Assembly (NCBI GenBank): GCA_945643635.1
Contig: CALZFC010000248.1
Span: forward strand, 1,789,001 to 1,853,000
From: Allodiplogaster sudhausi
Taxonomy: Eukaryota > Nematoda > Chromadorea > Rhabditida > Diplogasteridae
Length of the DNA: 64,000 nucleotides
Direction: 5' to 3'
Positions within the stretch are counted from its first letter, which is position 1; the number at the start of each line of letters is the position of its first letter. The translations under genes and the position numbers were made by a program. Of the stretch, positions 26,950 through 64,000 are shown one piece after another. The notes under the pieces were generated by a model. That model was not told where the DNA came from, ran no database searches, and worked only from the letters and a program-made list of their open reading frames with translations.

Positions 26950-26980
<31 letters not shown>

Positions 26981-27052: not shown

Positions 27053-27096
<44 letters not shown>

Positions 27097-27794: not shown

Positions 27795-27795
27795 C

Positions 27796-27846
<51 letters not shown>

Positions 27847-29460: not shown

Positions 29461-29468
29461 TGAATGAA

Positions 29469-29500
29469 GCTTTCCGCTTAGTAATTTCCTAAGCGAAAGC
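29469..29500. other. Imperfect hairpin, 12-bp stem
   Basis: GCTTTCCGCTTAG at 29469-29481 pairs with CTAAGCGAAAGC at 29489-29500, one bulged C, seven-base loop. Confidence 0.6.
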
Positions 29501-29504
29501 AGTA

Positions 29505-29548
29505 ACATTTGCCATTAAAAGGACACATGTCCTTTTAATGGCAAATGT
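29505..29548. other. 44-bp near-perfect palindrome
   Basis: Two 21-base arms, starting ACATTTGCCATTAAAAGGAC, are exact reverse complements separated only by CA. It lies four bases after the hairpin at 29469-29500. Confidence 0.9.
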
Positions 29549-30909: not shown

Positions 30910-30951
<42 letters not shown>

Positions 30952-35461: not shown

Positions 35462-36077
35462 ATTGCATTATATTTCCATATCCCTTCATAAACATATATA
35501 CCATTCACATCTTTGTAACCATGCAAATCGATTCGTTTTGTTCATTTAATTTTTTACGTCGTTTTTTTTACCTCTTCTCCATATGCATATGTATGTATTT
35601 TTCCTCTCGCTATAGGCTATTGAAATGCGCAAGGTACTTCCGATTGATTATTGCTAGCCAGTCAATGTCATTTTCCTGTCTTACACACGAGCCTCTCTTA
35701 CGGGTCCCATCCTTCTGAAAAGAAAAGATTTCTCCCGCTGAATCATTCAGCCAGTTTTTTATTCGCTGAATTATCCTAATTTTGTTTCCTTCTCTTCTCA
35801 TCATAAACATAATAAACAAGAAATCCAGAATGAACACTCTTGAGCAATCGCCAGGGAGAGATAGAGATAGACCGAGAAGAAATTTTGGAGTGTTGAGAGA
35901 TCGACAGCCGAATGGCAGAGGATGGACTTCAAAAGACCAAACTCTACCTTGCTTGTCCTTGAAAATAGGCATTGTACATCGCGTGAACAGCCAGCAAAAA
36001 ACTGTATGTCAAAAAATATTCTGTTTATAGTTGTTTTAACCAATTACGTAGAAATGCAAAGAAGAATAAATGGCATC
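35462..36077. other. 3' flank of RGM gene, no further gene seen
   Basis: Likely 3' UTR and intergenic DNA up to the tRNA array. An AATAAA lies at 35811. An open frame across 35830-35970 (rich in Arg/Asp) has no recognisable family. Confidence 0.5.
35811..35816 (+). terminator. Candidate polyadenylation signal of the RGM gene
   Basis: AATAAA 350 bases downstream of the RGM stop; no closer canonical signal was seen. Confidence 0.3.
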
Positions 36078-36128
36078 CGATCAACACTGATGTCTGCTTG
36101 ATGAATGTCACAAAAATTAAAAGATTTG

Positions 36129-36200
36129 TTCCGATGCCGGGAATCGAACCCGGGCCTTGCGGGTGAGAGCCGCAAATCATGACCACTAGACTACATCGGA
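36129..36200 (-). tRNA. tRNA-Glu (CUC), unit 1, consensus type
   Basis: Minus-strand transcript: acceptor TCCGATG pairs with CATCGGA, discriminator A, no encoded CCA. D-arm GTC-TAGTGGTCAT-GAT, anticodon arm TGCGG-CTCTCAC-CCGCA with anticodon CTC, T-arm CCGGG-TTCGATT-CCCGG. A box TAGTCTAGTGG fits TRGYNNANNNG; B box GGTTCGATTCC is exact. An oligo-T terminator follows within ten bases. It would decode GAG. Confidence 0.95.
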
Positions 36201-36287
36201 TATGTTTCATTAAATCCAACGTGGTGTCTACTTGCCAGAAAGAACAGCTGCAGATATGGAGAAATGTCACAAAAATTAAAAGATTTG

Positions 36288-36359
36288 TTCCGATGCCGGG
36301 AATCGAACCCCGGCCTTGCGGGTGAGAGCCGCAAATCATGACCACTAGACTACATCGGA
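36288..36359 (-). tRNA. tRNA-Glu (CUC), unit 2, T-stem variant
   Basis: Same as unit 1 except that C50 is G, giving a G-G mismatch in the T-stem (plus strand CCCCGG). The A box, B box and anticodon are kept. This class recurs many times through the array. Confidence 0.85.
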
Positions 36360-36446
36360 TATGTTTCATTAAATCCAACGTGGTGTCTACTGGCCAGAAA
36401 GAACAGCTGCAGATATGGAGAAATGTCACAAAAATTAAAAGATTTG

Positions 36447-36518
36447 TTCCGATGCCGGGAATCGAACCCGGGCCTTGCAGGTGAGAGCCGCAAATCATGA
36501 GCACTAGACTACATCGGA
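36447..36518 (-). tRNA. tRNA-Glu (CUC), unit 3, D-loop G19 variant
   Basis: T-stem and acceptor are intact, but the D-loop GG is GC (plus strand GAGCACTAG), removing the conserved G at the end of the A box. The anticodon stem has a G-U wobble (CTGCA). A recurrent class. Confidence 0.75.
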
Positions 36519-36605
36519 TATGTGTATTTAAATCCAACGTGATGTCTACTTGCCAGAAAGAACAGCTGCGGATATGGAGAAATGTCACAAAAATTAAAAG
36601 ATTTG

Positions 36606-36676
36606 TTCCGATGCCGGGAATCAAACCGGGCCTTGCGGGTGAGAGCCGCAAATCATGACCACTAGACTACATCGGA
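36606..36676 (-). pseudogene. tRNA-Glu unit 4, probable tRNA pseudogene
   Basis: 71 nt: one base is missing in the T-arm region and the B box reads GGTTTGATTCC (C56 to T), disturbing the T-loop C that contacts the D-loop. Confidence 0.6.
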
Positions 36677-36762
36677 TATGTTAATTTAAATCCAACGTGA
36701 TGTCTACTTGCCAGAAAGAACAGCTGTGGATATGGAGAAATGTCACAAAATTAAAAGATTTG

Positions 36763-36834
36763 TTTCGATGCCGGGAATCGAACCCTGGCCTTGCGGGTGA
36801 GAGCCGCAAATCATGACCACTCGACTACATCGGA
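36763..36834 (-). tRNA. tRNA-Glu (CUC), unit 5, double-mismatch class
   Basis: Plus strand TTTCGATG and CCCTGG: acceptor pair 2-71 becomes C-A and T-stem pair 50-64 becomes A-G. Plus-strand ACCACTCG also changes the A box to TAGTCGAGTGG. The anticodon loop is intact. This double-mismatch class recurs at regular intervals and may be non-functional. Confidence 0.6.
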
Positions 36835-36920
36835 TATATTTATTTAAATCCAACGTGATGTCTACTTGCCAGAAAGCACAGCTGCGGATATGGAGAAATG
36901 TCACAAAATTAAAAGATTTG

Positions 36921-36992
36921 TTCCGATGCCGGGAATCGAACCCCGGCCTTGCGGGTGAGAGCCGCAAATCATGACCACTAGACTACATCGGA
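36921..36992 (-). tRNA. tRNA-Glu (CUC), unit 6, T-stem variant
   Basis: Same class as unit 2 (C50 to G), otherwise consensus. Confidence 0.8.
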
Positions 36993-37079
36993 TATGTTTC
37001 ATTAAATCCAACGTGGTGTCTACTGGCCAGAAAGAACAGCTGCAGATATGGAGAAATGTCACAAAAATTAAAAGATTTG

Positions 37080-37151
37080 TTCCGATGCCGGGAATCGAAC
37101 CCGGGCCTTGCAGGTGAGAGCCGCAAATCATGAGCACTAGACTACATCGGA
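37080..37151 (-). tRNA. tRNA-Glu (CUC), unit 7, D-loop G19 variant
   Basis: Same class as unit 3: intact acceptor and T-arm, D-loop GC in place of GG. Confidence 0.75.
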
Positions 37152-40100
37152 TATGTGTATTTAAATCCAACGTGATGTCTACTTGCCAGAAAGAACAGCT
37201 GCAGATATGGAAAAATGTCACAAAAAATAAAAGATTTGTTCCGATGCCGGGAATCGAACCCGGGCCTTGCGGGTGAGAGCCGCAAATCATGACCACTAGA
37301 CTACATCGGACATGTTTCATTAAATCCAACGTGGTGTCTACTTGCCAGAAAGAACAGCTGCAGATATGGAGAAATGTCACAAAAGTTAAAAGATTTGTTC
37401 CGATGCCGGGAATCGAACCCGGGCCTTGCGGGTGAGAGCCGCAAATCACGACCGCTAGACTACATCGGATATGTTTCATTAAATCCAACGTGGTGTCTAC
37501 TTGCCAGAAAGAACAGCTGCAGATATGAAGAAATGTCACAAAAGTTAAAAGATTTGTTCCGATGCCGGGAAGCGAACCCTGGCCTTGCGGGTGAGAGCCG
37601 CAAATCATGACCACTAGACTACATCGGATATGTTTCATTAGATCCAACGTGGTGTCTACTTGCCAGAAAGAACAGCTGCAGATATGGAGAAATGTCACAA
37701 AAATTAAAAGATTTGTTCCAATGCCGGGAATCGAACCCGGGCCTTGCGGGTGAGAGCCGCAAATCATGACCACTAGACTACATCGGATATGTGTATTTAA
37801 ATCCAACGTGATGTCTACTTGCCAGAAAGAACAGCTGCAGATATGGAAAAATGTCACAAAAATTAAAAGATTTGTTCCGATGCCGGGAATCGAACCCGGG
37901 CCTTGCGGGTGAGAGCCGCAAATCATGACCACTCGACTACATCGGATATGTTTATTTAAATCCAACGTGATGTCTACTTGCCAGAAAGAACAGCTGCGGA
38001 TATGGAGAATGGCACAAAAATTAAAAGATTTGTTCCGATGCCGGGAATCGAACCCGGGCCTTGCGGGTGAGAGCCGCAAATCATGACCACTAGACTACAT
38101 CGGATATGTTTCATTAAATCCAACGTGGTGTCTACTTGCCAGAAAGAACAGCTGCAGATATGGAGAAATGTCACAAAAATTAAAAGATTTGTTCCGATGC
38201 CGGGAATCGAACCCGGGCCTTGCGGGTGAGAGCCGCAAATCATGACCGCTAGACTACATAGGATATGTTTCATTAAATCCAATGTGGTGTCTACTTGCCA
38301 GAAAGAACAGCTGCAGATATGGAGAAATGTCACAAAAATTAAAAGATTTGTTCCGATGCCGGGAATCGAACCCGGGCCTTGCGGGTGAGAGCCGCAAATC
38401 ATGACCACTAGACTACATCGGATATGTGTATTTAAATCCAACGTGATGTCTACTTGCCTGAAAGAACAGCTGCAGATATGGAAAAATGTCACAAAAAATA
38501 AAAGATTTGTTCCGATGCCGGGAATCGAACCCGGGCCTTGCAGATGAGAGCCGCAAATCATGACCACTAGACTACATCGGATATGTTTCATTAAATCCAA
38601 CGTGATGTCTACTTGCCAGAAAGAACAGCTGCGGATATGGAGAAATGTCACAAAAATTAAAAGATTTGTTCCGATGCCGGGAATCGAACCCGGGCCTTGC
38701 AGGTGAGAGCCGCAAATCATGACCACTCGACTACATCGGATATGTTTATTTAAATCCAACGTGATGTCTACTTGCCAGAAAGAACAGCTGCGGATATTTA
38801 GAAATGTCACAAAATTAAAAGATTTGTTTCGATGCCGGGAATCGAACCCTGGCCTTGCGGGTGAGAGCCGCAAATCATGACCACTCGACTACATCGGATA
38901 TATTTATTTAAATCCAACGTGATGTCTACTTGCCAGAAAGCACAGCTGCGGATATGGAGAAATGTCACAAAATTAAAAGATTTGTTTCGATGCCGGGAAT
39001 CGAACCCTGGCCTTGCGGGTGAGAGCCGCAAATCATGACTACTAGACTACATCGGATATGTTTCATTAAATCCAACGTGGTGTCTACTTGCCAGAAAGAA
39101 CAGCTGTGGATATGGAGAAATGTCACAAAATTAAAAGATTTGTTTCGCTGCCGGGAATCGAACCCTGGCCTTGCGGGTGAGAGCCGCAAATCATGACCAC
39201 TCGACTACATCGGATATATTTATTTAAATCCAACGTGATGTCTACTTGCCAGAAAGCACAGCTGCGGATATGGAGAAATGTCACAAAATTAAAAGATTTG
39301 TTTCGATGCCGGGAATCGAACCCTGGCCTTGCGGGTGAGAGCCGCAAATCATGACCACTCGACTACATCGGACCTGTTTCATTAAATCCAACGTTATGTC
39401 TACTTGCCAGAAAGAACAGCTGCAGATATGGAGAAATGTCACAAAAGTTAAAAGATTTGTTCCGATGCCGGGAATCGAACCCGGGCCTTGCGGGTGAGAG
39501 CCGCAAATCATGACCACTCGACTACATCGGATATGTGTATTTAAATCCAACGTGATGTCTACTTGCCTGAAAGAACAGCTGCAGATATGGAAAAATGTCA
39601 CAAAAAATAAAAGATTTGTTCCGATGCCGGGAATCGAACCCGGGCCTTGCAGGTGAGAGCCGCAAATCATGACCACTAGACTACATCGGATATGTTTCAT
39701 TAAATCCAACGTGATGTCTACTTGCCAGAAAGAACAGCTGCGGATATGGAGAAATGTCACAAAAATTAAAAGATTTGTTCCGATGCCGGGAATCAAACCC
39801 GGGCCTTGCGGGTGAGAGCCGCAAATCATGACCACTAGACTACATCGGATATGTTAATTTAAATCCAACGTGATGTCTACTTGCCAGAAAGAACAGCTGT
39901 GGATATGGAGAAATGTCACAAAATTAAAAGATTTGTTTCGATGCCGGGAATCGAACCCTGGCCTTGCGGGTGAGAGCCGCAAATCATGACCACTCGACTA
40001 CATCGGATATATTTATTTAAATCCAACGTGATGTCTACTTGCCAGAAAGCACAGCTGCGGATATGGAGAAATGTCACAAAATTAAAAGATTTGTTTCGAT

Positions 40101-43100
40101 GCCGGGAATCGAACCCTGGCCTTGCGGGTGAGAGCCGCAAATCATGACTACTAGACTACATCGGATATGTTTCATTAAATCCAACGTGGTGTCTACTTGC
40201 CAGAAAGAACAGCTGCAGATATGGAGAAATGTCACAAAAATTAAAAGTTTTGTTCCGATGCCGGGAATCGAACCCCGGCCTTGCGGGTGAGAGCCGCAAA
40301 TCATGACCACTAGACTACATCGGATATGTTTCATTAAATCCAACGTGGTGTCTACTGGCCAGAAAGAACAGCTGCAGATATGAAGAAATGTCACAAAAGT
40401 TAAAAGATTTGTTCCGATGCCGGGAATCGAACCCGGGCCTTGCAGGTGAGAGCCGCAAATCATGAGCACTAGACTACATCGGATATGTGTATTTAAATCC
40501 AACGTGATGTCTACTTGCCAGAAAGAACAGCTGCAGATATGGAGAAATGTCACAAAAATTAAAAGATTTGTTCCGATGCCGGGAATCGAACCCGGGCCTT
40601 GCGGGTGAGAGCCGCAAATCATGACCACTAGACTACATCGGATATGTGTATTTAAATCCAACGTGATGTCTACTTGCCAGAAAGAACAGCTGCGGATATG
40701 GAGAAATGTCACAAAATTAAAAGATTTGTTCCGATGCCGGGAATCGAACCCGGGCTTTGCGGGTGAGAGCCGCAAATCATGACCACTAGACTACATCGGA
40801 TATGTTTATTTAAATCCAACGTGATGTCTACTTGCCAGAAAGAACAGCTGCGGATATTTAGAAATGTCACAAAATTAAAAGATTTGTTTCGATGCCGGGA
40901 ATCGAACCCTGGCCTTGCGGGTGAGAGCCGCAAATCATGACTACTAGACTACATCGGATATGTTTCATTAAATCCAACGTGATGTCTACTTGCCAGAAAG
41001 AACAGCTGCAGATATGGAGAAATGTCACAAAAATTAAAAGATTTGTTCCGATGCCGGGAATCGAACCCTGGCCTTGCGGGTGAGAGCCGCAAATCATGAG
41101 CACTAGACTACATCGGATATGTGTATTTAAATCCAACGTGATGTCTACTTGCCAGAAAGAACAGCTGCGGATATGGAGAAATGTCACAAAATTAAAAGAT
41201 TTGTTTCGATGCCGGGAATCGAACCCTGGCCTTGCGGGTGAGAGCCGCAAATCATGACCACTCGACTACATCGGACATGTTTCATTAAATCCAACGTTAT
41301 GTCTACTTGCCAGAAAGAACAGCTGCAGATATGGAGAAATGTCACAAAAGTTAAAAGATTTGTTCCGATGCCGGGAATCGAACCCGGGCCTTGCGGGTGA
41401 GAGCCGCAAATCATGACCACTCGACTACATCGGATATATTTATTTAAATCCAACGTGATGTCTACTTGCCAGAAAGCACAGCTGCGGATATGGAGAAATG
41501 TCACAAAATTAAAAGATTTGTTTCGATGCCGGGAATCGAACCCTGGCCTTGCGGGTGAGAGCCGCAAATCATGACTACTAGACTACATCGGATATGTGTA
41601 TTTAAATCCAACGTGATGTCTACTTGCCAGAAAGAACAGCTGCAGATATGGAAAATGTCACAAAAAATAAAAGATTTGTTCCGATGCCGGGAATCGAACC
41701 CGGGCCTTGCGGGTGAGAGCCGCAAATCATGACCACTAGACTACATCGGACATGTTTCATTAAATCCAACGTGGTGTCTACTTGCCAGAAAGAACAGCTG
41801 CAGATATGGAGAAATGTCACAAAAGTTAAAAGATTTGTTCCGATGCCGGGAATCGAACCCGGGCCTTGCGGGTGAGAGCCGCAAATCATGACCGCTAGAC
41901 TACATCGGATATGTTTCATTAAATCCAACGTGGTGTCTACTTGCCAGAAAGAACAGCTGCAGATATGAAGAAATGTCACAAAAGTTAAAAGATTTGTTCC
42001 GATGCCGGGAATCAAACCCGGGCCTTGCAGGTGAGAGCCGCAAATCATGAGCACTAGACTACATCGGATATGTGTATTTAAATCCAACGTGATGTCTACT
42101 TGCCAGAAAGAACAGCTGCAGATATGGAGAAATGTCACAAAAATTAAAAGTTTGTTCCGATGCCGGGAATCGAACCCGGCCTTGCGGGTGAGAGCCGCAA
42201 ATCATGACCACTAGACTACATCGGATATGTGTATTTAAATCCAACGTGATGTCTACTTGCCAGAAAGAACAGCTGCAGATATGGAAAATGTCACAAAAAA
42301 TAAAAGATTTGTTTCGATGCCGGGAATCGAACCCTGGCCTTGCGGGTGAGAGCCGCAAATCATGACCACTCGACTACATCGGATATATTTATTTAAATCC
42401 AACGTGATGTCTACTTGCCAGAAAGCACAGCTGCGGATATGGAGAAATGTCACAAAAATTAAAAGTTTTGTTCCGATGCCGGGAATCGAACCCGGCCTTG
42501 CGGGTGAGAGCCGCAAATCATGACCACTAGACTACATCGGATATGTTTCATTAAATCCAACGTGGTGTCTACTATCCAGAAAGAACAGCTGCAGATATGA
42601 AGAAATGTCACAAAAGTTAAAAGATTTGTTCCGATGCCGGGAATCGAACCCGGGCCTTGCAGGTGAGAGCCGCAAATCATGAGCACTAGACTACATCGGA
42701 TATGTGTATTTAAATCCAACGTGATGTCTACTTGCCAGAAAGAACAGCTGCAGATATGGAGAAATGTCACAAAAATTAAAAGATTTGTTCCGATGCCGGG
42801 AATCGAACCCGGGCCTTGCGGGTGAGAGCCGCAAATCATGACCACTAGACTACATCGGATATGTGTATTTAAATCCAACGTGATGTCTACTTGCCAGAAA
42901 GAACAGCTGCGGATATGGAGAAATGTCACAAAATTAAAAGATTTGTTCCGATGCCGGGAATCGAACCCGGGCTTTGCGGGTGAGAGCCGCAAATCATGAC
43001 CACTAGACTACATCGGATATGTTTATTTAAATCCAACGTGATGTCTACTTGCCAGAAAGAACAGCTGCGGATATGGAGAAATGTCACAAAATTAAAAGAT

Positions 43101-46100
43101 TTGTTTCGATGCCGGGAATCGAACCCTGGCCTTGCGGGTGAGAGCCGCAAATCATGACTACTAGACTACATCGGATATGTTTCATTAAATCCAACGTGAT
43201 GTCTACTTGCCAGAAAGAACAGCTGCAGATATGGAGAAATGTCACAAAAATTAAAAGATTTGTTCCGATGCCGGGAATCGAACCCGGGCCTTGCGGGTGA
43301 GAGCCGCAAATCATGACCGCTAGACTACATCGGATATGTTTCATTAAATCCAACGTGGTGTCTACTTGCCAGAAAGAACAGCTGCAGATATGGAGAAATG
43401 TCACAAAAATTAAAAGATTTGTTCCGATGCCGGGAATCGAACCCGGGCCTTGCGGGTGAGAGCCGCAAATCATGACCACTAGACTACATCGGATATGTGT
43501 ATTTAAATCCAACGTGATGTCTACTTGCCAGAAAGAACAGCTGCAGATATGGAAAATGTCACAAAAAATAAAAGATTTGTTCCGATGCCGGGAATCGAAC
43601 CCGGGCCTTGCAGGTGAGAGCCGCAAATCATGACCACTAGACTACATCGGATATGTTTCATTAAATCCAACGTGATGTCTACTTGCCAGAAAGAACAGCT
43701 GCGGATATGGAGAAATGTCACAAAAATTAAAAGATTTGTTCCGATGCCGGGAATCAAACCCGGGCCTTGCGGGTGAGAGCCGCAAATCATGACCACTAGA
43801 CTACATCGGATATGTTATTTAAATCCAACGTGATGTCTACTTGCCAGAAAGAACAGCTGTGGATATGGAGAAATGTCACAAAATTAAAAGATTTGTTTCG
43901 ATGCCGGGAATCGAACCCTGGCCTTGCGGGTGAGAGCCGCAAATCATGACCACTCGACTACATCGGATATATTTATTTAAATCCAACGTGATGTCTACTT
44001 GCCAGAAAGCACAGCTGCGGATATGGAGAAATGTCACAAAATTAAAAGATTTGTTTCGATGCCGGGAATCGAACCCTGGCCTTGCGGGTGAGAGCCGCAA
44101 ATCATGACTACTAGACTACATCGGATATGTTTCATTAAATCCAACGTGGTGTCTACTTGCCAGAAAGAACAGCTGCAGATATGGAGAAATGTCACAAAAA
44201 TTAAAAGTTTTGTTCCGATGCCGGGAATCGAACCCGGCCTTGCGGGTGAGAGCCGCAAATCATGACCACTAGACTACATCGGATATGTTTCATTAAATCC
44301 AACGTGGTGTCTACTGCCAGAAAGAACAGCTGCAGATATGAAGAAATGTCACAAAAGTTAAAAGATTTGTTCCGATGCCGGGAATCGAACCCGGGCCTTG
44401 CAGGTGAGAGCCGCAAATCATGAGCACTAGACTACATCGGATATGTGTATTTAAATCCAACGTGATGTCTACTTGCCAGAAAGAACAGCTGCAGATATGG
44501 AGAAATGTCACAAAAATTAAAAGATTTGTTCCGATGCCGGGAATCGAACCCGGGCCTTGCGGGTGAGAGCCGCAAATCATGACCACTAGACTACATCGGA
44601 TATGTGTATTTAAATCCAACGTGATGTCTACTTGCCAGAAAGAACAGCTGCGGATATGGAGAAATGTCACAAAATTAAAAGATTTGTTCCGATGCCGGGA
44701 ATCGAACCCGGGCTTTGCGGGTGAGAGCCGCAAATCATGACCACTAGACTACATCGGATATGTTTATTTAAATCCAACGTGATGTCTACTTGCCAGAAAG
44801 AACAGCTGCGGATATGGAGAAATGTCACAAAATTAAAAGATTTGTTTCGATGCCGGGAATCGAACCCTGGCCTTGCGGGTGAGAGCCGCAAATCATGACT
44901 ACTAGACTACATCGGATATGTTTCATTAAATCCAACGTGATGTCTACTTGCCAGAAAGAACAGCTGCAGATATGGAGAAATGTCACAAAAATTAAAAGAT
45001 TTGTTCCGATGCCGGGAATCGAACCCTGGCCTTGCGGGTGAGAGCCGCAAATCATGAGCACTAGACTACATCGGATATGTGTATTTAAATCCAACGTGAT
45101 GTCTACTTGCCAGAAAGAACAGCTGCGGATATGGAGAAATGTCACAAAATTAAAAGATTTGTTTCGATGCCGGGAATCGAACCCTGGCCTTGCGGGTGAG
45201 AGCCGCAAATCATGACCACTAGACTACATCGGATATGTTTCATTAAATCCAACGTTATGTCTACTTGCCAGAAAGAACAGCTGCAGATATGGAGAAATGT
45301 CACAAAAGTTAAAAGATTTGTTCCGATGCCGGGAATCGAACCCGGGCCTTGGGGGTGAGAGCCGCAAATCATGACCACTAGACTACATCGGATATGTTTA
45401 TTTAAATCCAACGTGATGTCTACTTGCCAGAAAGAACAGCTGCGGATATGGAGAAATGTCACAAAATTAAAAGATTTGTTTCCGATGCCGGGAATCGAAC
45501 CCGGCCTTGCGGGTGAGAGCCGCAAATCATGACCACTAGACTACATCGGATATGTTTCATTAAATCCAACGTGGTGTCTACTTGCCAGAAAGAACAGCTG
45601 CAGATATGGAGAAATGTCACAAAAGTTAAAAGATTTGTTCCGATGCCGGGAATCGAACCCGGGCCTTGCAGGTGAGAGCCGCAAATCATGACACTAGACT
45701 ACATCGGATATGTGTATTTAAATCCAACGTGATGTCTACTTGCCAGAAAGAACAGCTGCAGATATGGAGAAATGTCACAAAAATTAAAAGTTTTGTTCCG
45801 ATGCCGGGAATCGAACCCGGCCTTGCGGGTGAGAGCCGCAAATCATGACCACTAGACTACATCGGATATGTTTCATTAAATCCAACGTGGTGTCTACTTG
45901 CCAGAAAGAACAGCTGCAGATATGAAGAAATGTCACAAAAGTTAAAAGATTTGTTCCGATGCCGGGAATCGAACCCGGGCCTTGCAGGTGAGAGCCGCAA
46001 ATCATGAGCACTAGACTACATCGGATATGTGTATTTAAATCCAACGTGATGTCTACTTGCCAGAAAGAACAGCTGCAGATATGGAGAAATGTCACAAAAA

Positions 46101-49100
46101 TAAAAGATTTGTTCCGATGCCGGGAATCGAACCCGGGCCTTGCAGGTGAGAGCCGCAAATCATGACCACTAGACTACATCGGATATGTTTCATTAAATCC
46201 AACGTGATGTCTACTTGCCAGAAAGAACAGCTGCGATATGGAGAAATGTCACAAAATTAAAAGATTTGTTCCGATGCCGGGAATCGAACCCGGGCCTTGC
46301 GGGTGAGAGCCGCAAATCATGACCACTAGACTACATCGGATATGTTAATTTAAATCCAACGTGATGTCTACTTGCCAGAAAGAACAGCTGCAGATATGGA
46401 GAAATGTCACAAAATTAAAAGATTTGTTTCGATGCCGGGAATCGAACCCTGGCCTTGCGGGTGAGAGCCGCAAATCATGACCACTAGACTACATCGGATA
46501 TGTTTATTTAAATCCAACGTGATGTCTACTTGCCAGAAAGCACAGCTGCGGATATGGAGAAATGTCACAAAATTAAAAGATTTGTTTCGATGCCGGGAAT
46601 CGAACCCTGGCCTTGCGGGTGAGAGCCGCAAATCATGACTACTAGACTACATCGGATATGTTTCATTAAATCCAACGTGGTGTCTACTTGCCAGAAAGAA
46701 CAGCTGCAGATATGGAGAAATGTCACAAAAATTAAAAGTTTTGTTCCGATGCCGGGAATCGAACCCCGGCCTTGCGGGTGAGAGCCGCAAATCATGACCA
46801 CTAGACTACATCGGATATGTTTCATTAAATCCAACGTGGTGTCTACTTGCCAGAAAGAACAGCTGCAGATATGAAGAAATGTCACAAAAGTTAAAAGATT
46901 TGTTCCGATGCCGGGAATCGAACCCGGGCCTTGCAGGTGAGAGCCGCAAATCATGAGCACTAGACTACATCGGATATGTGTATTTAAATCCAACGTGATG
47001 TCTACTTGCCAGAAAGAACAGCTGCAGATATGGAGAAATGTCACAAAAATTAAAAGATTTGTTCCGATGCCGGGAATCGAACCCGGGCCTTGCGGGTGAG
47101 AGCCGCAAATCATGACCACTAGACTACATCGGATATGTGTATTTAAATCCAACGTGATGTCTACTTGCCAGAAAGAACAGCTGCGGATATGGAGAAATGT
47201 CACAAAATTAAAAGATTTGTTCCGATGCCGGGAATCGAACCCGGGCTTTGCGGGTGAGAGCCGCAAATCATGACCACTAGACTACATCGGATATGTTTAT
47301 TAAATCCAACGTGATGTCTACTTGCCAGAAAGAACAGCTGCGATATGGAGAAATGTCACAAAATTAAAAGATTTGTTTCGATGCCGGGAATCGAACCCTG
47401 GCCTTGCGGGTGAGAGCCGCAAATCATGACTACTAGACTACATCGGATATGTTTCATTAAATCCAACGTGATGTCTACTTGCCAGAAAGAACAGCTGCAG
47501 ATATGGAGAAATGTCACAAAAATTAAAAGATTTGTTCCGATGCCGGGAATCGAACCCTGGCCTTGCGGGTGAGAGCCGCAAATCATGAGCACTAGACTAC
47601 ATCGGATATGTGTATTTAAATCCAACGTGATGTCTACTTGCCAGAAAGAACAGCTGCGGATATGGAGAAATGTCACAAAATTAAAAGATTTGTTTCGATG
47701 CCGGGAATCGAACCCTGGCCTTGCGGGTGAGAGCCGCAAATCATGACCACTCGACTACATCGGATATGTTTCATTAAATCCAACGTGATGTCTACTTGCC
47801 AGAAAGAACAGCTGCAGATATGGAGAAATGTCACAAAAGTTAAAAGATTTGTTCCGATGCCGGGAATCGAACCCGGGCCTTGGGGTGAGAGCCGCAAATC
47901 ATGACCACTAGACTACATCGGATATATTTATTTAAATCCAACGTGATGTCTACTTGCCAGAAAGCACAGCTGCGGATATGGAGAAATGTCACAAAATTAA
48001 AAGATTTGTTTCGATGCCGGGAATCGAACCCCGGCCTTGCGGGTGAGAGCCGCAAATCATGACCGCTAGACTACATCGGATATGTTTCATTAAATCCAAC
48101 GTGGTGTCTACTTGCCAGAAAGAACAGCTGCAGATATGGAGAAATGTCACAAAATTAAAAGATTTGTTCCGATGCCGGGAATCGAACCCGGGCCTTGCAG
48201 GTGAGAGCCGCAAATCATGAGCACTAGACTACATCGGATATGTGTATTTAAATCCAACGTGATGTCTACTTGCCAGAAAGAACAGCTGCAGATATGGAGA
48301 AATGTCACAAAAATTAAAAGATTTGTTCCGATGCCGGGAATCGAACCCGGGCCTTGCGGGTGAGAGCCGCAAATCATGAGCACTAGACTACATCGGATAT
48401 GTGTATTTAAATCCAACGTGATGTCTACTTGCCAGAAAGAACAGCTGCGGATATGGAGAAATGTCACAAAATTAAAAGATTTGTTTCGATGCCGGGAATC
48501 GAACCCTGGCCTTGCGGGTGAGAGCCGCAAATCATGACCACTAGACTACATCGGATATGTTTCATTAAATCCAACGTGATGTCTACTTGCCAGAAAGAAC
48601 AGCTGCAGATATGGAGAAATGTCACAAAAGTTAAAAGATTTGTTCCGATGCCGGGAATCGAACCCGGGCCTTGCGGGTGAGAGCCGCAAATCATGACCAC
48701 TAGACTACATCGGATATGTTTATTTAAATCCAACGTGATGTCTACTTGCCAGAAAGAACAGCTGCAGATATGGAGAAATGTCACAAAATTAAAAGATTTG
48801 TTTCGATGCCGGGAATCGAACCCCGGCCTTGCGGGTGAGAGCCGCAAATCATGACCACTAGACTACATCGGATATGTTTCATTAAATCCAACGTGGTGTC
48901 TACTTGCCAGAAAGAACAGCTGCAGATATGGAGAAATGTCACAAAAGTTAAAAGATTTGTTCCGATGCCGGGAATCGAACCCGGGCCTTGCGGGTGAGAG
49001 CCGCAAATCATGACCACTAGACTACATCGGATATGTTTATTTAAATCCAACGTGATGTCTACTTGCCAGAAAGAACAGCTGCAGATATGGAGAAATGTCA

Positions 49101-52100: not shown

Positions 52101-55100
52101 TGTCACAAAATTAAAAGATTTGTTTCGATGCCGGGAATCGAACCCTGGCCTTGCGGGTGAGAGCCGCAAATCATGACCACTAGACTACATCGGATATGTT
52201 TCATTAAATCCAACGTGATGTCTACTTGCCAGAAAGAACAGCTGCAGATATGGAGAAATGTCACAAAAGTTAAAAGATTTGTTCCGATGCCGGGAATCGA
52301 ACCCGGCCTTGCGGGTGAGAGCCGCAAATCATGACCACTAGACTACATCGGATATGTTTATTTAAATCCAACGTGATGTCTACTTGCCAGAAAGAACAGC
52401 TGCGGATATGGAGAAATGTCACAAAATTAAAAGATTTGTTTCGATGCCGGGAATCGAACCCTGGCCTTGCGGGTGAGAGCCGCAAATCATGACTACTAGA
52501 CTACATCGGATATGTTTCATTAAATCCAACGTGGTGTCTACTTGCCAGAAAGAACAGCTGCAGATATGGAGAAATGTCACAAAAATTAAAAGATTTGTTC
52601 CGATGCCGGGAATCGAACCCCGGCCTTGCGGGTGAGAGCCGCAAATCATGACCACTAGACTACATCGGATATGTTTCATTAAATCCAACGTGGTGTCTAC
52701 TTGCCAGAAAGAACAGCTGCAGATATGGAGAAATGTCACAAAAATTAAAAGATTTGTTCCGATGCCGGGAATCGAACCCGGGCCTTGCAGGTGAGAGCCG
52801 CAAATCATGAGCACTAGACTACATCGGATATGTGTATTTAAATCCAACGTGATGTCTACTTGCCAGAAAGAACAGCTGCAGATATGGAAAAATGTCACAA
52901 AAAATAAAAGATTTGTTCCGATGCCGGGAATCGAACCCGGGCCTTGCGGGTGAGAGCCGCAAATCATGACCACTAGACTACATCGGATATGTTTCATTAA
53001 ATCCAACGTGGTGTCTACTTGCCAGAAAGAACAGCTGCAGATATGGAGAAATGTCACAAAAGTAAAAGATTTGTTCCGATGCCGGGAATCGAACCCGGGC
53101 CTTGCGGGTGAGAGCCGCAAATCATGACCACTAGACTACATCGGATATGTTTCATTAAATCCAACGTGGTGTCTACTTGCCAGAAAGAACAGCTGCAGAT
53201 ATGGAGAAATGTCACAAAAGTTAAAAGATTTGTTCCGATGCCGGGAATCGAACCCGGCCCTTGCAGGTGAGAGCCGCAAATCATGAGCACTAGACTACAT
53301 CGGATATGTGTATTTAAATCCAACGTGATGTCTACTTGCCAGAAAGAACAGCTGCAGATATGGAGAAATGTCACAAAATTAAAAGATTTGTTCCGATGCC
53401 GGGAATCGAACCCGGGCCTTGCGGGTGAGAGCCGCAAATCATGACCACTAGACTACATCGGATATGTGTATTTAAATCCAACGTGATGTCTACTTGCCAG
53501 AAAGAACAGCTGCAGATATGGAGAAATGTCACAAAATTAAAAGATTTGTTCCGATGCCGGGAATCGAACCCGGGCCTTGCGGGTGAGAGCCGCAAATCAT
53601 GACCACTAGACTACATCGGATATGTTTCATTAAATCCAACGTGGTGTCTACTTGCCAGAAAGAACAGCTGCAGATATGGAGAAATGTCACAAAAATTAAA
53701 AGATTTGTTCCGATGCCGGGAATCGAACCCGGGCCTTGCGGGTGAGAGCCGCAAATCATGACCACTAGACTACATCGGATATGTTTCATTAAATCCAACG
53801 TGGTGTCTACTTGCCAGAAAGAACAGCTGCAGATATGGAGAAATGTCACAAAATTAAAAGATTTGTTCCGATGCCGGGAATCGAACCCGGGCCTTGCGGG
53901 TGAGAGCCGCAAATCATGACCACTAGACTACATCGGATATGTTTATTTAAATCCAACGTGATGTCTACTTGCCAGAAAGAACAGCTGCAGATATGGAGAA
54001 ATGTCACAAAAATTAAAAGATTTGTTCCGATGCCGGGAATCGAACCCCGGCCTTGCGGGTGAGAGCCGCAAATCATGACCACTAGACTACATCGGATATG
54101 TTTCATTAAATCCAACGTGGTGTCTACTTGCCAGAAAGAACAGCTGCAGATATGGAGAAATGTCACAAAAGTTAAAAGATTTGTTCCGATGCCGGGAATC
54201 GAACCCGGGCCTTGCGGGTGAGAGCCGCAAATCATGACCACTAGACTACATCGGATATGTGTATTTAAATCCAACGTGATGTCTACTTGCCAGAAAGAAC
54301 AGCTGCAGATATGGAGAAATGTCACAAAAATTAAAAGATTTGTTCCGATGCCGGGAATCGAACCCGGCCTTGCGGGTGAGAGCCGCAAATCATGACCACT
54401 AGACTACATCGGATATGTGTATTTAAATCCAACGTGATGTCTACTTGCCAGAAAGAACAGCTGCAGATATGGAGAAATGTCACAAAATTAAAAGATTTGT
54501 TCCGATGCCGGGAATCGAACCCGGGCTTGCGGGTGAGAGCCGCAAATCATGACCACTAGACTACATCGGATATGTTTATTTAAATCCAACGTGATGTCTA
54601 CTTGCCAGAAAGAACAGCTGCGGATATGGAGAAATGTCACAAAATTAAAAGATTTGTTTCGATGCCGGGAATCGAACCCTGGCCTTGCGGGTGAGAGCCG
54701 CAAATCATGACTACTAGACTACATCGGATATGTTTCATTAAATCCAACGTGATGTCTACTTGCCAGAAAGAACAGCTGCAGATATGGAGAAATGTCACAA
54801 AATTAAAAGATTTGTTCCGATGCCGGGAATCGAACCCTGGCCTTGCGGGTGAGAGCCGCAAATCATGAGCACTAGACTACATCGGATATGTGTATTTAAA
54901 TCCAACGTGATGTCTACTTGCCAGAAAGAACAGCTGCAGATATGGAGAAATGTCACAAAATTAAAAGATTTGTTTCGATGCCGGGAATCGAACCCTGGCC
55001 TTGCGGGTGAGAGCCGCAAATCATGACCACTAGACTACATCGGATATGTTTCATTAAATCCAACGTGATGTCTACTTGCCAGAAAGAACAGCTGCAGATA

Positions 55101-58100
55101 TGGAGAAATGTCACAAAAGTTAAAAGATTTGTTCCGATGCCGGGAATCGAACCCGGGCCTTGCGGGTGAGAGCCGCAAATCATGACCACTAGACTACATC
55201 GGATATGTTTATTTAAATCCAACGTGATGTCTACTTGCCAGAAAGAACAGCTGCGGATATGGAGAAATGTCACAAAATTAAAAGATTTGTTTCGATGCCG
55301 GGAATCGAACCCTGGCCTTGCGGGTGAGAGCCGCAAATCATGACTACTAGACTACATCGGATATGTTTCATTAAATCCAACGTGGTGTCTACTTGCCAGA
55401 AAGAACAGCTGCAGATATGGAGAAATGTCACAAAAATTAAAAGATTTGTTCCGATGCCGGGAATCGAACCCCGGCCTTGCGGGTGAGAGCCGCAAATCAT
55501 GACCACTAGACTACATCGGATATGTTTCATTAAATCCAACGTGGTGTCTACTTGCCAGAAAGAACAGCTGCAGATATGGAGAAATGTCACAAAAATTAAA
55601 AGATTTGTTCCGATGCCGGGAATCGAACCCGGCCTTGCAGGTGAGAGCCGCAAATCATGAGCACTAGACTACATCGGATATGTGTATTTAAATCCAACGT
55701 GATGTCTACTTGCCAGAAAGAACAGCTGCAGATATGGAAAATGTCACAAAAAATAAAAGATTTGTTCCGATGCCGGGAATCGAACCCGGCCTTGCGGGTG
55801 AGAGCCGCAAATCATGACCACTAGACTACATCGGATATGTTTCATTAAATCCAACGTGGTGTCTACTTGCCAGAAAGAACAGCTGCAGATATGGAGAAAT
55901 GTCACAAAAGTTAAAAGATTTGTTCCGATGCCGGGAATCGAACCCGGCCTTGCGGGTGAGAGCCGCAAATCATGACCACTAGACTACATCGGATATGTTT
56001 CATTAAATCCAACGTGGTGTCTACTTGCCAGAAAGAACAGCTGCAGATATGGAGAAATGTCACAAAAGTTAAAAGATTTGTTCCGATGCCGGGAATCGAA
56101 CCCGGGCCTTGCGGGTGAGAGCCGCAAATCATGAGCACTAGACTACATCGGATATGTGTATTTAAATCCAACGTGATGTCTACTTGCCAGAAAGAACAGC
56201 TGCAGATATGGAGAAATGTCACAAAAATTAAAAGATTTGTTCCGATGCCGGGAATCGAACCCGGGCCTTGCGGGTGAGAGCCGCAAATCATGACCACTAG
56301 ACTACATCGGATATGTGTATTTAAATCCAACGTGATGTCTACTTGCCAGAAAGAACAGCTGCGGATATGGAGAAATGTCACAAAATTAAAAGATTTGTTC
56401 CGATGCCGGGAATCGAACCCGGGCCTTGCGGGTGAGAGCCGCAAATCATGACCACTAGACTACATCGGATATGTTTATTTAAATCCAACGTGATGTCTAC
56501 TTGCCAGAAAGAACAGCTGCAGATATGGAGAAATGTCACAAAATTAAAAGATTTGTTTCGATGCCGGGAATCGAACCCTGGCCTTGCGGGTGAGAGCCGC
56601 AAATCATGACTACTAGACTACATCGGATATGTTTCATTAAATCCAACGTGATGTCTACTTGCCAGAAAGAACAGCTGCAGATATGGAGAAATGTCACAAA
56701 AATTAAAAGATTTGTTCCGATGCCGGGAATCGAACCCTGGCCTTGCGGGTGAGAGCCGCAAATCATGAGCACTAGACTACATCGGATATGTGTATTTAAA
56801 TCCAACGTGATGTCTACTTGCCAGAAAGAACAGCTGCAGATATGGAGAAATGTCACAAAATTAAAAGATTTGTTTCGATGCCGGGAATCGAACCCTGGCC
56901 TTGCGGGTGAGAGCCGCAAATCATGACCACTAGACTACATCGGATATGTTTATTTAAATCCAACGTGATGTCTACTTGCCAGAAAGAACAGCTGCGATAT
57001 GGAGAAATGTCACAAAATTAAAAGATTTGTTCCGATGCCGGGAATCGAACCCTGGCCTTGCGGGTGAGAGCCGCAAATCATGACCACTAGACTACATCGG
57101 ATATGTGTATTTAAATCCAACGTGATGTCTACTTGCCAGAAAGAACAGCTGCGATATGGAGAAATGTCACAAAATTAAAAGATTTGTTTCGATGCCGGGA
57201 ATCGAACCCTGGCCTTGCGGGTGAGAGCCGCAAATCATGACCACTAGACTACATCGGATATGTTTCATTAAATCCAACGTGGTGTCTACTTGCCAGAAAG
57301 AACAGCTGCAGATATGGAGAAATGTCACAAAAATTAAAAGATTTGTTCCGATGCCGGGAATCGAACCCCGGCCTTGCGGGTGAGAGCCGCAAATCATGAC
57401 CACTAGACTACATCGGATATGTTTCATTAAATCCAACGTGGTGTCTACTTGCCAGAAAGAACAGCTGCAGATATGGAGAAATGTCACAAAAATTAAAAGA
57501 TTTGTTCCGATGCCGGGAATCGAACCCGGGCCTTGCGGGTGAGAGCCGCAAATCATGACACTAGACTACATCGGATATGTGTATTTAAATCCAACGTGAT
57601 GTCTACTTGCCAGAAAGAACAGCTGCAGATATGGAAAAATGTCACAAAAATAAAAGATTTGTTCCGATGCCGGGAATCGAACCCGGGCCTTGCGGGTGAG
57701 AGCCGCAAATCATGACCACTAGACTACATCGGATATGTTTCATTAAATCCAACGTGGTGTCTACTTGCCAGAAAGAACAGCTGCAGATATGGAGAAATGT
57801 CACAAAATTAAAAGATTTGTTCCGATGCCGGGAATCGAACCCGGGCCTTGCGGGTGAGAGCCGCAAATCATGACCACTAGACTACATCGGATATGTTTCA
57901 TTAAATCCAACGTGGTGTCTACTTGCCAGAAAGAACAGCTGCAGATATGGAGAAATGTCACAAAAGTTAAAAGATTTGTTCCGATGCCGGGAATCGAACC
58001 CGGGCCTTGCAGGTGAGAGCCGCAAATCATGAGCACTAGACTACATCGGATATGTGTATTTAAATCCAACGTGGTGTCTACTTGCCAGAAAGAACAGCTG

Positions 58101-61100
58101 CAGATATGGAGAAATGTCACAAAAATTAAAAGATTTGTTCCGATGCCGGGAATCGAACCCCGGCCTTGCGGGTGAGAGCCGCAAATCATGACCACTAGAC
58201 TACATCGGATATGTTTCATTAAATCCAACGTGGTGTCTACTTGCCAGAAAGAACAGCTGCAGATATGGAGAAATGTCACAAAAATTAAAAGATTTGTTCC
58301 GATGCCGGGAATCGAACCCGGGCCTTGCGGGTGAGAGCCGCAAATCATGACCACTAGACTACATCGGATATGTGTATTTAAATCCAACGTGATGTCTACT
58401 TGCCAGAAAGAACAGCTGCAGATATGGAGAAATGTCACAAAAATTAAAAGATTTGTTCCGATGCCGGGAATCGAACCCGGGCCTTGCGGGTGAGAGCCGC
58501 AAATCATGACCACTAGACTACATCGGATATGTTTCATTAAATCCAACGTGGTGTCTACTTGCCAGAAAGAACAGCTGCAGATATGGAGAAATGTCACAAA
58601 AGTTAAAAGATTTGTTCCGATGCCGGGAATCGAACCCGGGCCTTGCGGGTGAGAGCCGCAAATCATGACCACTAGACTACATCGGATATGTTTCATTAAA
58701 TCCAACGTGGTGTCTACTTGCCAGAAAGAACAGCTGCAGATATGGAGAAATGTCACAAAAGTTAAAAGATTTGTTCCGATGCCGGGAATCGAACCCGGGC
58801 CTTGCGGGTGAGAGCCGCAAATCATGAGCACTAGACTACATCGGATATGTGTATTTAAATCCAACGTGATGTCTACTTGCCAGAAAGAACAGCTGCAGAT
58901 ATGGAGAAATGTCACAAAAATTAAAAGATTTGTTCCGATGCCGGGAATCGAACCCGGGCCTTGCGGGTGAGAGCCGCAAATCATGACCACTAGACTACAT
59001 CGGATATGTGTATTTAAATCCAACGTGATGTCTACTTGCCAGAAAGAACAGCTGCGGATATGGAGAAATGTCACAAAATTAAAAGATTTGTTCCGATGCC
59101 GGGAATCGAACCCGGGCCTTGCGGGTGAGAGCCGCAAATCATGACCACTAGACTACATCGGATATGTTTATTTAAATCCAACGTGATGTCTACTTGCCAG
59201 AAAGAACAGCTGCGGATATGGAGAAATGTCACAAAATTAAAAGATTTGTTTCGATGCCGGGAATCGAACCCTGGCCTTGCGGGTGAGAGCCGCAAATCAT
59301 GACTACTAGACTACATCGGATATGTTTCATTAAATCCAACGTGATGTCTACTTGCCAGAAAGAACAGCTGCAGATATGGAGAAATGTCACAAAAATTAAA
59401 AGATTTGTTCCGATGCCGGGAATCGAACCCTGGCCTTGCGGGTGAGAGCCGCAAATCATGAGCACTAGACTACATCGGATATGTGTATTTAAATCCAACG
59501 TGATGTCTACTTGCCAGAAAGAACAGCTGCGGATATGGAGAAATGTCACAAAATTAAAAGATTTGTTTCGATGCCGGGAATCGAACCCTGGCCTTGCGGG
59601 TGAGAGCCGCAAATCATGACCACTAGACTACATCGGATATGTTTATTTAAATCCAACGTGATGTCTACTTGCCAGAAAGAACAGCTGCAGATATGGAGAA
59701 ATGTCACAAAATTAAAAGATTTGTTCCGATGCCGGGAATCGAACCCTGGCCTTGCGGGTGAGAGCCGCAAATCATGACCACTAGACTACATCGGATATGT
59801 TTATTTAAATCCAACGTGATGTCTACTTGCCAGAAAGAACAGCTGCGGATATGGAGAAATGTCACAAAATTAAAAGATTTGTTTCGATGCCGGGAATCGA
59901 ACCCTGGCCTTGCGGGTGAGAGCCGCAAATCATGACTACTAGACTACATCGGATATGTTTCATTAAATCCAACGTGGTGTCTACTTGCCAGAAAGAACAG
60001 CTGCAGATATGGAGAAATGTCACAAAAATTAAAAGATTTGTTCCGATGCCGGGAATCGAACCCCGGCCTTGCGGGTGAGAGCCGCAAATCATGACCACTA
60101 GACTACATCGGATATGTTTCATTAAATCCAACGTGGTGTCTACTTGCCAGAAAGAACAGCTGCAGATATGGAGAAATGTCACAAAAATTAAAAGATTTGT
60201 TCCGATGCCGGGAATCGAACCCGGGCCTTGCAGGTGAGAGCCGCAAATCATGAGCACTAGACTACATCGGATATGTGTATTTAAATCCAACGTGATGTCT
60301 ACTTGCCAGAAAGAACAGCTGCAGATATGGAAAAATGTCACAAAAATAAAAGATTTGTTCCGATGCCGGGAATCGAACCCGGGCCTTGCGGGTGAGAGCC
60401 GCAAATCATGACCACTAGACTACATCGGATATGTTTCATTAAATCCAACGTGGTGTCTACTTGCCAGAAAGAACAGCTGCAGATATGGAGAAATGTCACA
60501 AAAGTTAAAAGATTTGTTCCGATGCCGGGAATCGAACCCGGGCCTTGCGGGTGAGAGCCGCAAATCATGACCGCTAGACTACATCGGATATGTTTCATTA
60601 AATCCAACGTGGTGTCTACTTGCCAGAAAGAACAGCTGCAGATATGGAGAAATGTCACAAAAGTTAAAAGATTTGTTCCGATGCCGGGAATCGAACCCGG
60701 GCCTTGCAGGTGAGAGCCGCAAATCATGAGCACTAGACTACATCGGATATGTGTATTTAAATCCAACGTGATGTCTACTTGCCAGAAAGAACAGCTGCAG
60801 ATATGGAGAAATGTCACAAAAATTAAAAGATTTGTTCCGATGCCGGGAATCGAACCCGGGCCTTGCGGGTGAGAGCCGCAAATCATGACCACTAGACTAC
60901 ATCGGATATGTGTATTTAAATCCAACGTGATGTCTACTTGCCAGAAAGAACAGCTGCAGATATGGAGAAATGTCACAAAAGTTAAAAGATTTGTTCCGAT
61001 GCCGGGAATCGAACCCTGGCCTTGCGGGTGAGAGCCGCAAATCATGACCACTAGACTACATCGGATATGTTTATTTAAATCCAACGTGATGTCTACTTGC

Positions 61101-63843
61101 CAGAAAGAACAGCTGCGGATATGGAGAAATGTCACAAAATTAAAAGATTTGTTTCGATGCCGGGAATCGAACCCTGGCCTTGCGGGTGAGAGCCGCAAAT
61201 CATGACTACTAGACTACATCGGATATGTTTCATTAAATCCAACGTGGTGTCTACTTGCCAGAAAGAACAGCTGCAGATATGGAGAAATGTCACAAAAATT
61301 AAAAGATTTGTTCCGATGCCGGGAATCGAACCCCGGCCTTGCGGGTGAGAGCCGCAAATCATGACCACTAGACTACATCGGATATGTTTCATTAAATCCA
61401 ACGTGGTGTCTACTTGCCAGAAAGAACAGCTGCAGATATGGAGAAATGTCACAAAAATTAAAAGATTTGTTCCGATGCCGGGAATCGAACCCGGGCCTTG
61501 CGGGTGAGAGCCGCAAATCATGACCACTAGACTACATCGGATATGTGTATTTAAATCCAACGTGATGTCTACTTGCCAGAAAGAACAGCTGCAGATATGG
61601 AAAAATGTCACAAAAATAAAAGATTTGTTCCGATGCCGGGAATCGAACCCGGGCCTTGCGGGTGAGAGCCGCAAATCATGACCACTAGACTACATCGGAT
61701 ATGTTTCATTAAATCCAACGTGGTGTCTACTTGCCAGAAAGAACAGCTGCAGATATGGAGAAATGTCACAAAAGTTAAAAGATTTGTTCCGATGCCGGGA
61801 ATCGAACCCGGGCCTTGCGGGTGAGAGCCGCAAATCATGACCACTAGACTACATCGGATATGTTTCATTAAATCCAACGTGGTGTCTACTTGCCAGAAAG
61901 AACAGCTGCAGATATGGAGAAATGTCACAAAATTAAAAGATTTGTTCCGATGCCGGGAATCGAACCCGGGCCTTGCGGGTGAGAGCCGCAAATCATGAGC
62001 ACTAGACTACATCGGATATGTGTATTTAAATCCAACGTGATGTCTACTTGCCAGAAAGAACAGCTGCAGATATGGAGAAATGTCACAAAATTAAAAGATT
62101 TGTTCCGATGCCGGGAATCGAACCCGGGCCTTGCGGGTGAGAGCCGCAAATCATGACCACTCGACTACATCGGATATATTTATTTAAATCCAACGTGATG
62201 TCTACTTGCCAGAAAGAACAGCTGCGGATATGGAGAAATGTCACAAAATTAAAAGATTTGTTTCGATGCCGGGAATCGAACCCTGGCCTTGCGGGTGAGA
62301 GCCGCAAATCATGACTACTAGACTACATCGGATATGTTTCATTAAATCCAACGTGGTGTCTACTTGCCAGAAAGAACAGCTGCAGATATGGAGAAATGTC
62401 ACAAAAATTAAAAGATTTGTTCCGATGCCGGGAATCGAACCCCGGCCTTGCGGGTGAGAGCCGCAAATCATGACCACTAGACTACATCGGATATGTTTCA
62501 TTAAATCCAACGTGGTGTCTACTTGCCAGAAAGAACAGCTGCAGATATGGAGAAATGTCACAAAAATTAAAAGATTTGTTCCGATGCCGGGAATCGAACC
62601 CTGGCCTTGCAGGTGAGAGCCGCAAATCATGAGCACTAGACTACATCGGATATGTGTATTTAAATCCAACGTGATGTCTACTTGCCAGAAAGAACAGCTG
62701 CAGATATGGAAAATGTCACAAAAATAAAAGATTTGTTCCGATGCCGGGAATCGAACCCGGGCCTTGCGGGTGAGAGCCGCAAATCATGACCACTAGACTA
62801 CATCGGATATGTTTCATTAAATCCAACGTGGTGTCTACTTGCCAGAAAGAACAGCTGCAGATATGGAGAAATGTCACAAAAGTTAAAAGATTTGTTCCGA
62901 TGCCGGGAATCGAACCCGGGCCTTGCGGGTGAGAGCCGCAAATCATGACCACTAGACTACATCGGATATGTTTCATTAAATCCAACGTGGTGTCTACTTG
63001 CCAGAAAGAACAGCTGCAGATATGGAGAAATGTCACAAAATTAAAAGATTTGTTCCGATGCCGGGAATCGAACCCGGGCCTTGCGGTGAGAGCCGCAAAT
63101 CATGAGCACTAGACTACATCGGATATGTGTATTTAAATCCAACGTGATGTCTACTTGCCAGAAAGAACAGCTGCAGATATGGAGAAATGTCACAAAATTA
63201 AAAGATTTGTTCCGATGCCGGGAATCGAACCCGGCCTTGCGGGTGAGAGCCGCAAATCATGACCACTAGACTACATCGGATATGTTTATTTAAATCCAAC
63301 GTGATGTCTACTTGCCAGAAAGAACAGCTGCGGATATGGAGAAATGTCACAAAATTAAAAGATTTGTTTCGATGCCGGGAATCGAACCCTGGCCTTGCGG
63401 GTGAGAGCCGCAAATCATGACTACTAGACTACATCGGATATGTTTCATTAAATCCAACGTGGTGTCTACTTGCCAGAAAGAACAGCTGCAGATATGGAGA
63501 AATGTCACAAAAATTAAAAGATTTGTTCCGATGCCGGGAATCGAACCCCGGCCTTGCGGGTGAGAGCCGCAAATCATGACCACTAGACTACATCGGATAT
63601 GTTTCATTAAATCCAACGTGGTGTCTACTTGCCAGAAAGAACAGCTGCAGATATGGAGAAATGTCACAAAAATTAAAAGATTTGTTCCGATGCCGGGAAT
63701 CGAACCCGGGCCTTGCAGGTGAGAGCCGCAAATCATGAGCACTAGACTACATCGGATATGTGTATTTAAATCCAACGTGATGTCTACTTGCCAGAAAGAA
63801 CAGCTGCAGATATGGAAAAATGTCACAAAAAATAAAAGATTTG

Positions 63844-63915
63844 TTCCGATGCCGGGAATCGAACCCGGGCCTTGCGGGTGAGAGCCGCAAATCATGACCA
63901 CTAGACTACATCGGA
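63844..63915 (-). tRNA. tRNA-Glu (CUC), last complete unit in window, consensus type
   Basis: Identical in all arms to unit 1. The spacer that follows runs to the window end, so the array continues. Confidence 0.95.
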
Positions 63916-64000
63916 TATGTTTCATTAAATCCAACGTGGTGTCTACTTGCCAGAAAGAACAGCTGCAGATATGGAGAAATGTCACAAAAGTTAAAAGATT

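Follow-up and report, generated by a model that had tools for sequence, protein, structure and literature searches.

A long, regular run of glutamate tRNA genes in a nematode raises the question of whether such a locus is a set of working genes, a satellite that happens to carry a tRNA sequence, or a stretch of DNA whose role lies in chromatin. An earlier note on this DNA had offered three guesses (a tRNA-seeded satellite, a dosage device for GAG decoding, and a domain dense in Pol III), which are mutually compatible. The reading that we favor, with a probability of roughly 60%, is that a functional tRNA gene has grown to satellite scale by unequal exchange and that selection acts on the pool of copies rather than on each of them.

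Extent, unit plan, and Pol III signals of the array

The window, the whole stretch of 64,000 nucleotides that was analyzed, is C242:1789001-1853000, part of an 8.2-Mb contig (C242) in an Allodiplogaster sudhausi assembly of 351.8 Mb and 382 contigs. From 36104 to 64000 of the window, TRF, ARAGORN, and cmscan identify a tandem array of mostly 158/159-bp units, every unit bearing a single minus-strand gene of tRNA-Glu(CTC) type. The earlier note had let the array begin at 36078, and this start has to be moved, as TRF puts the array proper at 36104 (36104 to 64000, period 159, 176.1 copies, 95% matches). Its figure of about 176 copies in 28 kb agrees with every program used: besides the TRF count, ARAGORN called 176 tRNA genes between 36128 and 63915, all on the minus strand, and Rfam cmscan returned 176 RF00005 matches above the gathering score, with a best score of 64.6 bits among the 150 matches listed of the 176. 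The description of one gene per 158/159-bp unit on a single strand likewise holds, with the 175 gene spacings being mostly 159 (86) or 158 (63), followed by 157 (17), 160 (4), 156 (3), and 155 (2) bases. Chance is ruled out as the source of so regular an array.

The first gene, at 36129-36200 on the minus strand by cmscan (36128-36200 by ARAGORN), is among the top-scoring copies at 64.6 bits. The first full spacer follows at 36201-36286; as delimited from the sequence, the alignment, and the T-runs, it consists of the upstream side of gene 1 and the downstream side of gene 2, including the T-run terminator of the latter, and the spacer measures about 86-88 bp per unit across the array. ARAGORN read the anticodon as Glu(CTC) in 172 of the 176 genes in the window and left it undetermined in the other 4, which have an altered loop length; the copy at 47851-47922 (minus strand), identified from ARAGORN and the unit haplotypes, is an example of these decaying copies.

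Sequence fetched rightward closes the array, which the earlier note had called open-ended, at C242:1893684, about window position 104,684. The whole array is thus approximately 68.6 kb long, with 433 units counted by anchor. ARAGORN, run on separate pieces, called 429 genes (422 Glu-CTC, 6 undetermined, and 1 Gln-CTG), and the gap of 4 is presumed to stem from units cut at piece borders; the single copy reading Gln(CTG) does so through an anticodon change (fetched piece L012, 9820-9892). At the array end lies a fold-back junction, a partial unit in inverted orientation at C242:1893684-1893810 (end approximate), with other DNA beyond. Farther right, C242:1894224-1903000 holds a Maverick/Polinton-like element with a chromodomain-bearing integrase and an adenovirus-type protease; the match to its A32-like ATPase falls below the cut-off for that family.

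Each unit had been described as carrying an A box, a B box, and a terminator. For the terminator this is true throughout, with a run of at least four T's within 35 nt of the 3' end in 433 of 433 units of the whole array, but the A box is present in 366, the B box in 427, and both in 362 of the 433. The consensus unit has all three elements, and together with the cloverleaf and the RF00005 score of the best copies (64.6 bits) these identify a nuclear tRNA gene of the Pol III type 2 plan. The D stem of the consensus tRNA is interrupted at 13-22 by a T-T mismatch, and the D arm is missing when the bare 71-base sequence is folded to minimum energy. With internal A and B boxes and a T-run terminator, every unit has the makings of a complete Pol III gene, so that individual transcription of the intact copies is probable. 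The central observation of the earlier note, a giant single-isoacceptor tRNA array with Pol III signals in an invertebrate, is borne out.

Variation, constraint, and turnover among the units

The 433 aligned units fall into 219 distinct sequences, with 62 different versions of the tRNA, and the mean difference between units is 3.4%. The exact consensus tRNA is present in 168 of the 433. The remainder were sorted by cloverleaf and against a list of bases which we take to be invariant: 39 units carry tolerated changes only, 185 are damaged through an invariant-base change or a broken pair, and 41 bear indels, such that 226 of the 433 are damaged or contain indels. Several variants are frequent (positions in the 71-base gene), namely C49A in 93 units, G70A in 72, G18C in 54, C40T in 40, and G17A in 39. 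The change at position 49 breaks a T-stem pair, that at position 70 breaks an acceptor pair, and positions 17 and 18 are the GG of the D loop.

Two aspects of this variation point in different directions. Distinct variants that break the structure were as frequent, relative to those possible (22 of 140), as tolerated ones (12 of 73; p=1), and selection on single copies is therefore not visible. The tRNA part nevertheless varies less than the spacer, with pi at 0.023 versus 0.041, variable sites at 29 of 71 versus 53 of 88 (p=0.017), and distinct substitutions at 34 of 213 possible versus 67 of 264 (p=0.013), both tests being modest and treating sites as independent. Intact copies are also unevenly placed: exact-consensus copies make up 7 of 43 units in each of the first two bins, at the left end, versus 30 of 43 in the eighth, and are clustered along the array (runs test, z -4.9).

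A fully mixed array was considered at first, given a likeness of 0.964 between neighbors versus 0.962 between random pairs, and was rejected when a shuffle test gave signals both for neighbors and for longer lags. Adjacent units differed on average by 6.37 versus approximately 6.76 in shuffled order (z -3.6), and stronger similarity peaks appeared at lags of 47, 32, 15, and 12 units (z -10.8 to -7.2). Pairs of eight-unit blocks differing at no more than 2 positions per unit on average numbered 522 (overlapping windows counted) versus 0 in each of 10 shuffles. Blocks of many units have therefore been duplicated, as is expected under unequal exchange. This mode of turnover is characteristic of satellite DNA and supports the view that the array copies evolve like it. 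The term tRNA-seeded satellite is thus apt for the pattern of variation; the conserved consensus, on the other hand, supports real tRNA genes.

A second array offers a comparison. Contig C104 carries 26 units of the same 159-bp type, differing from those of the C242 array by approximately 6.8%. The left flanks of the two arrays are collinear, window 23297-36039 matching in four pieces of 82-90% identity (blastn, C242:1812297-1825039 versus C104:678009-695391). The two consensus units differ at 7 places, every one of them within the spacer (p=0.017, or p=0.066 when the 5 substitutions are taken alone, with sites treated as independent), and the consensus tRNA is identical at both arrays. That tRNA is found in only 4 of the 26 C104 units. 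Among the 24 tRNA genes called on this contig (C104:698001-708000), 3 read Glu(TTC), with an altered anticodon loop.

Other parts of the assembly also occur twice. The nematode cuticle-collagen domain PF01484 gave 396 first-look candidates, of which all 150 that were scored matched, with 0 in 14 prokaryotic control genomes, a result that marks the genome as a nematode's. Clusters of these collagen genes lie with equal or near-equal scores and similar spacing on the contig pairs C1/C17, C5/C110, C5/C119, and C7/C273 (e.g., C1:5757839-5763915 and C17:1123656-1129749), as if the assembly contained divergent haplotypes or a duplicated genome. C104 may therefore represent the alternative haplotype of the C242 locus, or else a duplicate of that region; if it is an allele, the length of the array differs from 26 to 433 units. 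Another contig, C228 (49 kb), has two COX1 matches, at 14856-16001 and 34974-36308, and accordingly resembles a concatemer of mitochondrial DNA, or else a mitochondrial genome that carries duplications; the COX1 piece is open throughout when read with the invertebrate mitochondrial code, also points to a nematode, and appears chromadorean by its likeness to the C. elegans protein.

The left flank of the array within the window contains several features of its own. A 2.8-kb segment at 15513-18347, with perfect terminal inverted repeats of 48-49 nt and subterminal arrays of TAGGCGTCCCAT, looks like a recently inserted DNA transposon. A (TATG)28 microsatellite lies at 22163-22273, and GA/CT-rich tracts are very numerous, occurring at many places from 375 to 34090. 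An open frame on the plus strand at 33265-33669, perhaps an exon, weakly matches the C-terminal domain of RGM, with an E value of 2.4e-4 that does not reach the curated cut-off; a PDB search with this frame gave no match.

tRNA arrays elsewhere in the genome

Comparison with other Glu(CTC) loci, as the earlier note had suggested, revealed the same gene type on C104 and a second Glu(CTC) type in an array of its own on contig C10. The C10 array starts at 762.6 kb and reaches 900.5 kb or beyond. Its unit of approximately 667 bp holds two genes, Glu(CTC) on one strand and Pro(CGG) on the other; the interval 762.6-800 kb contains 57 genes for Glu and 55 for Pro, and the array was present in all 5 further probes up to 900.7 kb. 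The interval 960-970 kb holds 1 tRNA gene, so the array ends before it. These Glu(CTC) genes are far more uniform than the C242 copies, with 45 of the 57 identical. The family differs from the C242 Glu type at 6 positions, four of which form two compensatory stem pairs, a substitution pattern suggesting that the Glu(CTC) gene family has been kept to the cloverleaf.

Other isoacceptors are arranged in the same manner. Lys(TTT) genes at spacings of mostly 137 or 259 bases form an array on C19 that begins no later than 2420.0 kb and continues to 2520.5 kb or farther (present at 6 of 6 places checked), and Arg(TCG) genes at spacings of mostly 231 or 345 bases form one on C21 from 1782.2 to approximately 1889.4 kb (5 of 5 places checked). 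On C9, 6 Arg genes within 7 kb make up a looser group. Genomewide, there are 15,714 occurrences of the exact B box, GGTTCGANTCC (6,073 plus 9,641 by strand), versus 197 of a reversed control pattern. The B-box figure counts motifs rather than proven tRNA genes, includes dispersed ones, and misses tRNAs whose B box differs. Among the 100 matches listed for this motif, all on C1, 84 fall in two runs: 71 at 1160.2-1188.2 kb, mostly about 402 bases apart among the matches listed, and 13 at 1221.2-1224.9 kb on the opposite strand. Three units fetched from these runs (one of the 71 and two of the 13) are Arg(ACG). Separate arrays are thus present for Glu(CTC), Glu(CTC)/Pro(CGG), Lys(TTT), Arg(TCG), and Arg(ACG).

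A first look with RF00005 across the whole genome gave 47,110 candidates, and 62 of the 63 that were scored were matches. The exact anticodon arm of the C242 Glu type occurs 382 times, always on the same strand; among the 100 of these matches that were listed, 82 lie on C242 and 18 on C104. Two solo copies that were examined, on C325 and C46, share with the array unit, by eye, just the tRNA and a few flanking bases.

This distribution bears on two ideas about the origin and use of the array. A private answer to GAG codon demand was rejected, and the guess of a dosage device specific to GAG decoding is accordingly weak, since Lys, Arg, and Glu/Pro arrays and a second Glu(CTC) family exist in the same genome. 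A tRNA-derived SINE, which would show dispersed copies and a LINE-like or A-rich tail, was also rejected, the copies here standing head to tail.

Explanations of the array and its place among known systems

A model of the array is proposed in which amplification has carried a functional nuclear tRNA-Glu(CTC) gene, together with its own flanks of approximately 87 bp, to satellite scale. Both copy number and the likeness of sequences would result from unequal exchange and from the duplication of blocks spanning many units, while selection would keep the consensus of the pool and not every copy, which would account for about half of the copies now being structurally damaged. A pool of intact copies would then be in use, with a growing share of dead ones, and the C242 array would be one case of a genome habit of placing tRNA genes in isoacceptor-specific tandem arrays.

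The strongest competitor, although we judge it unlikely at about half the weight of our own reading or less, is that the array is a passive or selfish repeat derived from a tRNA, its transcription incidental, with the worm relying on other Glu(CTC) genes such as those on C10. The 226 of 433 units that are damaged or carry indels, the lack of avoidance of breaking variants, and the much greater uniformity of the C10 Glu genes (45 of 57 identical) would all fit such a repeat. It sits less well with the lower variability of the tRNA part relative to the spacer, the unchanged consensus tRNA at C104, and the retention of the boxes in most units. Much less probable is a chromatin domain dense in Pol III and TFIIIC, serving as a boundary, a nuclear anchor, or a site of replication pausing, to which the tRNA product would be irrelevant. 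The exact B box in 427 of 433 units, more than have an intact tRNA, could be read in this way, and a role as boundary elements has been suggested for human tandem tRNA repeats (PMC4041453); however, because the B box is part of the T arm, its retention is also expected from constraint on the tRNA, or from chance. That the assembler inflated what is really a short array, or a handful of loose copies, is hardly credible despite the divergent second copies of some regions in the assembly, given the 219 distinct units among 433, the other sequence on both sides within one 8.2-Mb contig, and the several independent arrays of other isoacceptors and other unit lengths.

With head-to-tail units that each contain a tRNA gene, the C242 array is of the same kind as the tRNA arrays of Entamoeba and Phytophthora, in a new phylum. 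Among the matches listed from the open-licence literature, we found no report of tandem tRNA arrays in nematodes. Tandem tRNA repeats are known in Xenopus. Excerpts of a survey of tRNA copy number contain none of the terms "tandem," "cluster," and "nematod" (PMC9858662), and in passages of a paper on Meloidogyne hapla mentions of tRNA are confined to the mitochondrial genome and the references. Phytophthora infestans has isoacceptor-specific tandem arrays and approximately eight thousand tRNA genes, a number only modestly correlated with codon use; 271 tRNA-Cys copies with a 513-nt unit are found on one chromosome, and two-gene units occur as well (PMC9584435). Isoacceptor-specific arrays and two-gene units are thus common to this oomycete and the nematode; the monomeric arrays of P. 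infestans, however, are near-identical internally, whereas those of C242 show a mean difference of 3.4% between units, and about half of the units are damaged. Nearly all tRNA genes of the protist Entamoeba are in tandem arrays of repeated units of unclear function; Entamoeba histolytica has 25 such units, none with more than 5 genes (PMC2652664). The tandem repetition is shared with C242, but two Entamoeba species have short tandem repeats between the genes, and the C242 unit has none.

Nematostella, zebrafish, and other teleosts are animals with large clusters, of fifty and more tRNA genes (PMC2888827); in Nematostella and zebrafish, pairs are mostly of mixed amino acids, in contrast to the single isoacceptor and short regular unit of C242. 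The human tandem repeat at 1q23.3, which varies in copy number from 9 to 43 units per allele, has a GC-rich unit of 7.3 kb with five tRNA genes and CTCF sites, compared with 158/159 bp and one gene here; its authors considered homogeneous tRNA tandem repeats uncommon outside Entamoeba (PMC4041453). Plants have tandem single-isoacceptor repeats, such as 27 tRNA-Pro genes in Arabidopsis, and clusters of two to 110 genes (PMC12652284), with copies in the tens as opposed to the 433 units of C242.

What the worm might gain from such arrays can be guessed from zebrafish, in which maternal tRNAs are said to derive from highly repetitive regions (PMC11417395); by analogy, the arrays may provide surplus tRNA capacity for bursts of protein synthesis, e.g., in egg provisioning. 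More broadly, and at odds clearly below even, we tentatively suggest that much of the tRNA gene set of this nematode, more than 10,000 tRNA-like genes, has moved into isoacceptor-specific Pol III satellites that would act as a standing high-output bank, with selection on the summed output of an array leaving single copies free to decay.

In sum, more than 400 head-to-tail copies of one glutamate tRNA gene are a striking new animal case of a tandem tRNA array, and genome-scale isoacceptor-specific arrays, known from Entamoeba and Phytophthora, are now extended to a nematode. Natural arrays with hundreds of marked copies could show in how many of its copies a repeated gene is expressed, as well as how selection acts on an array as opposed to a gene.
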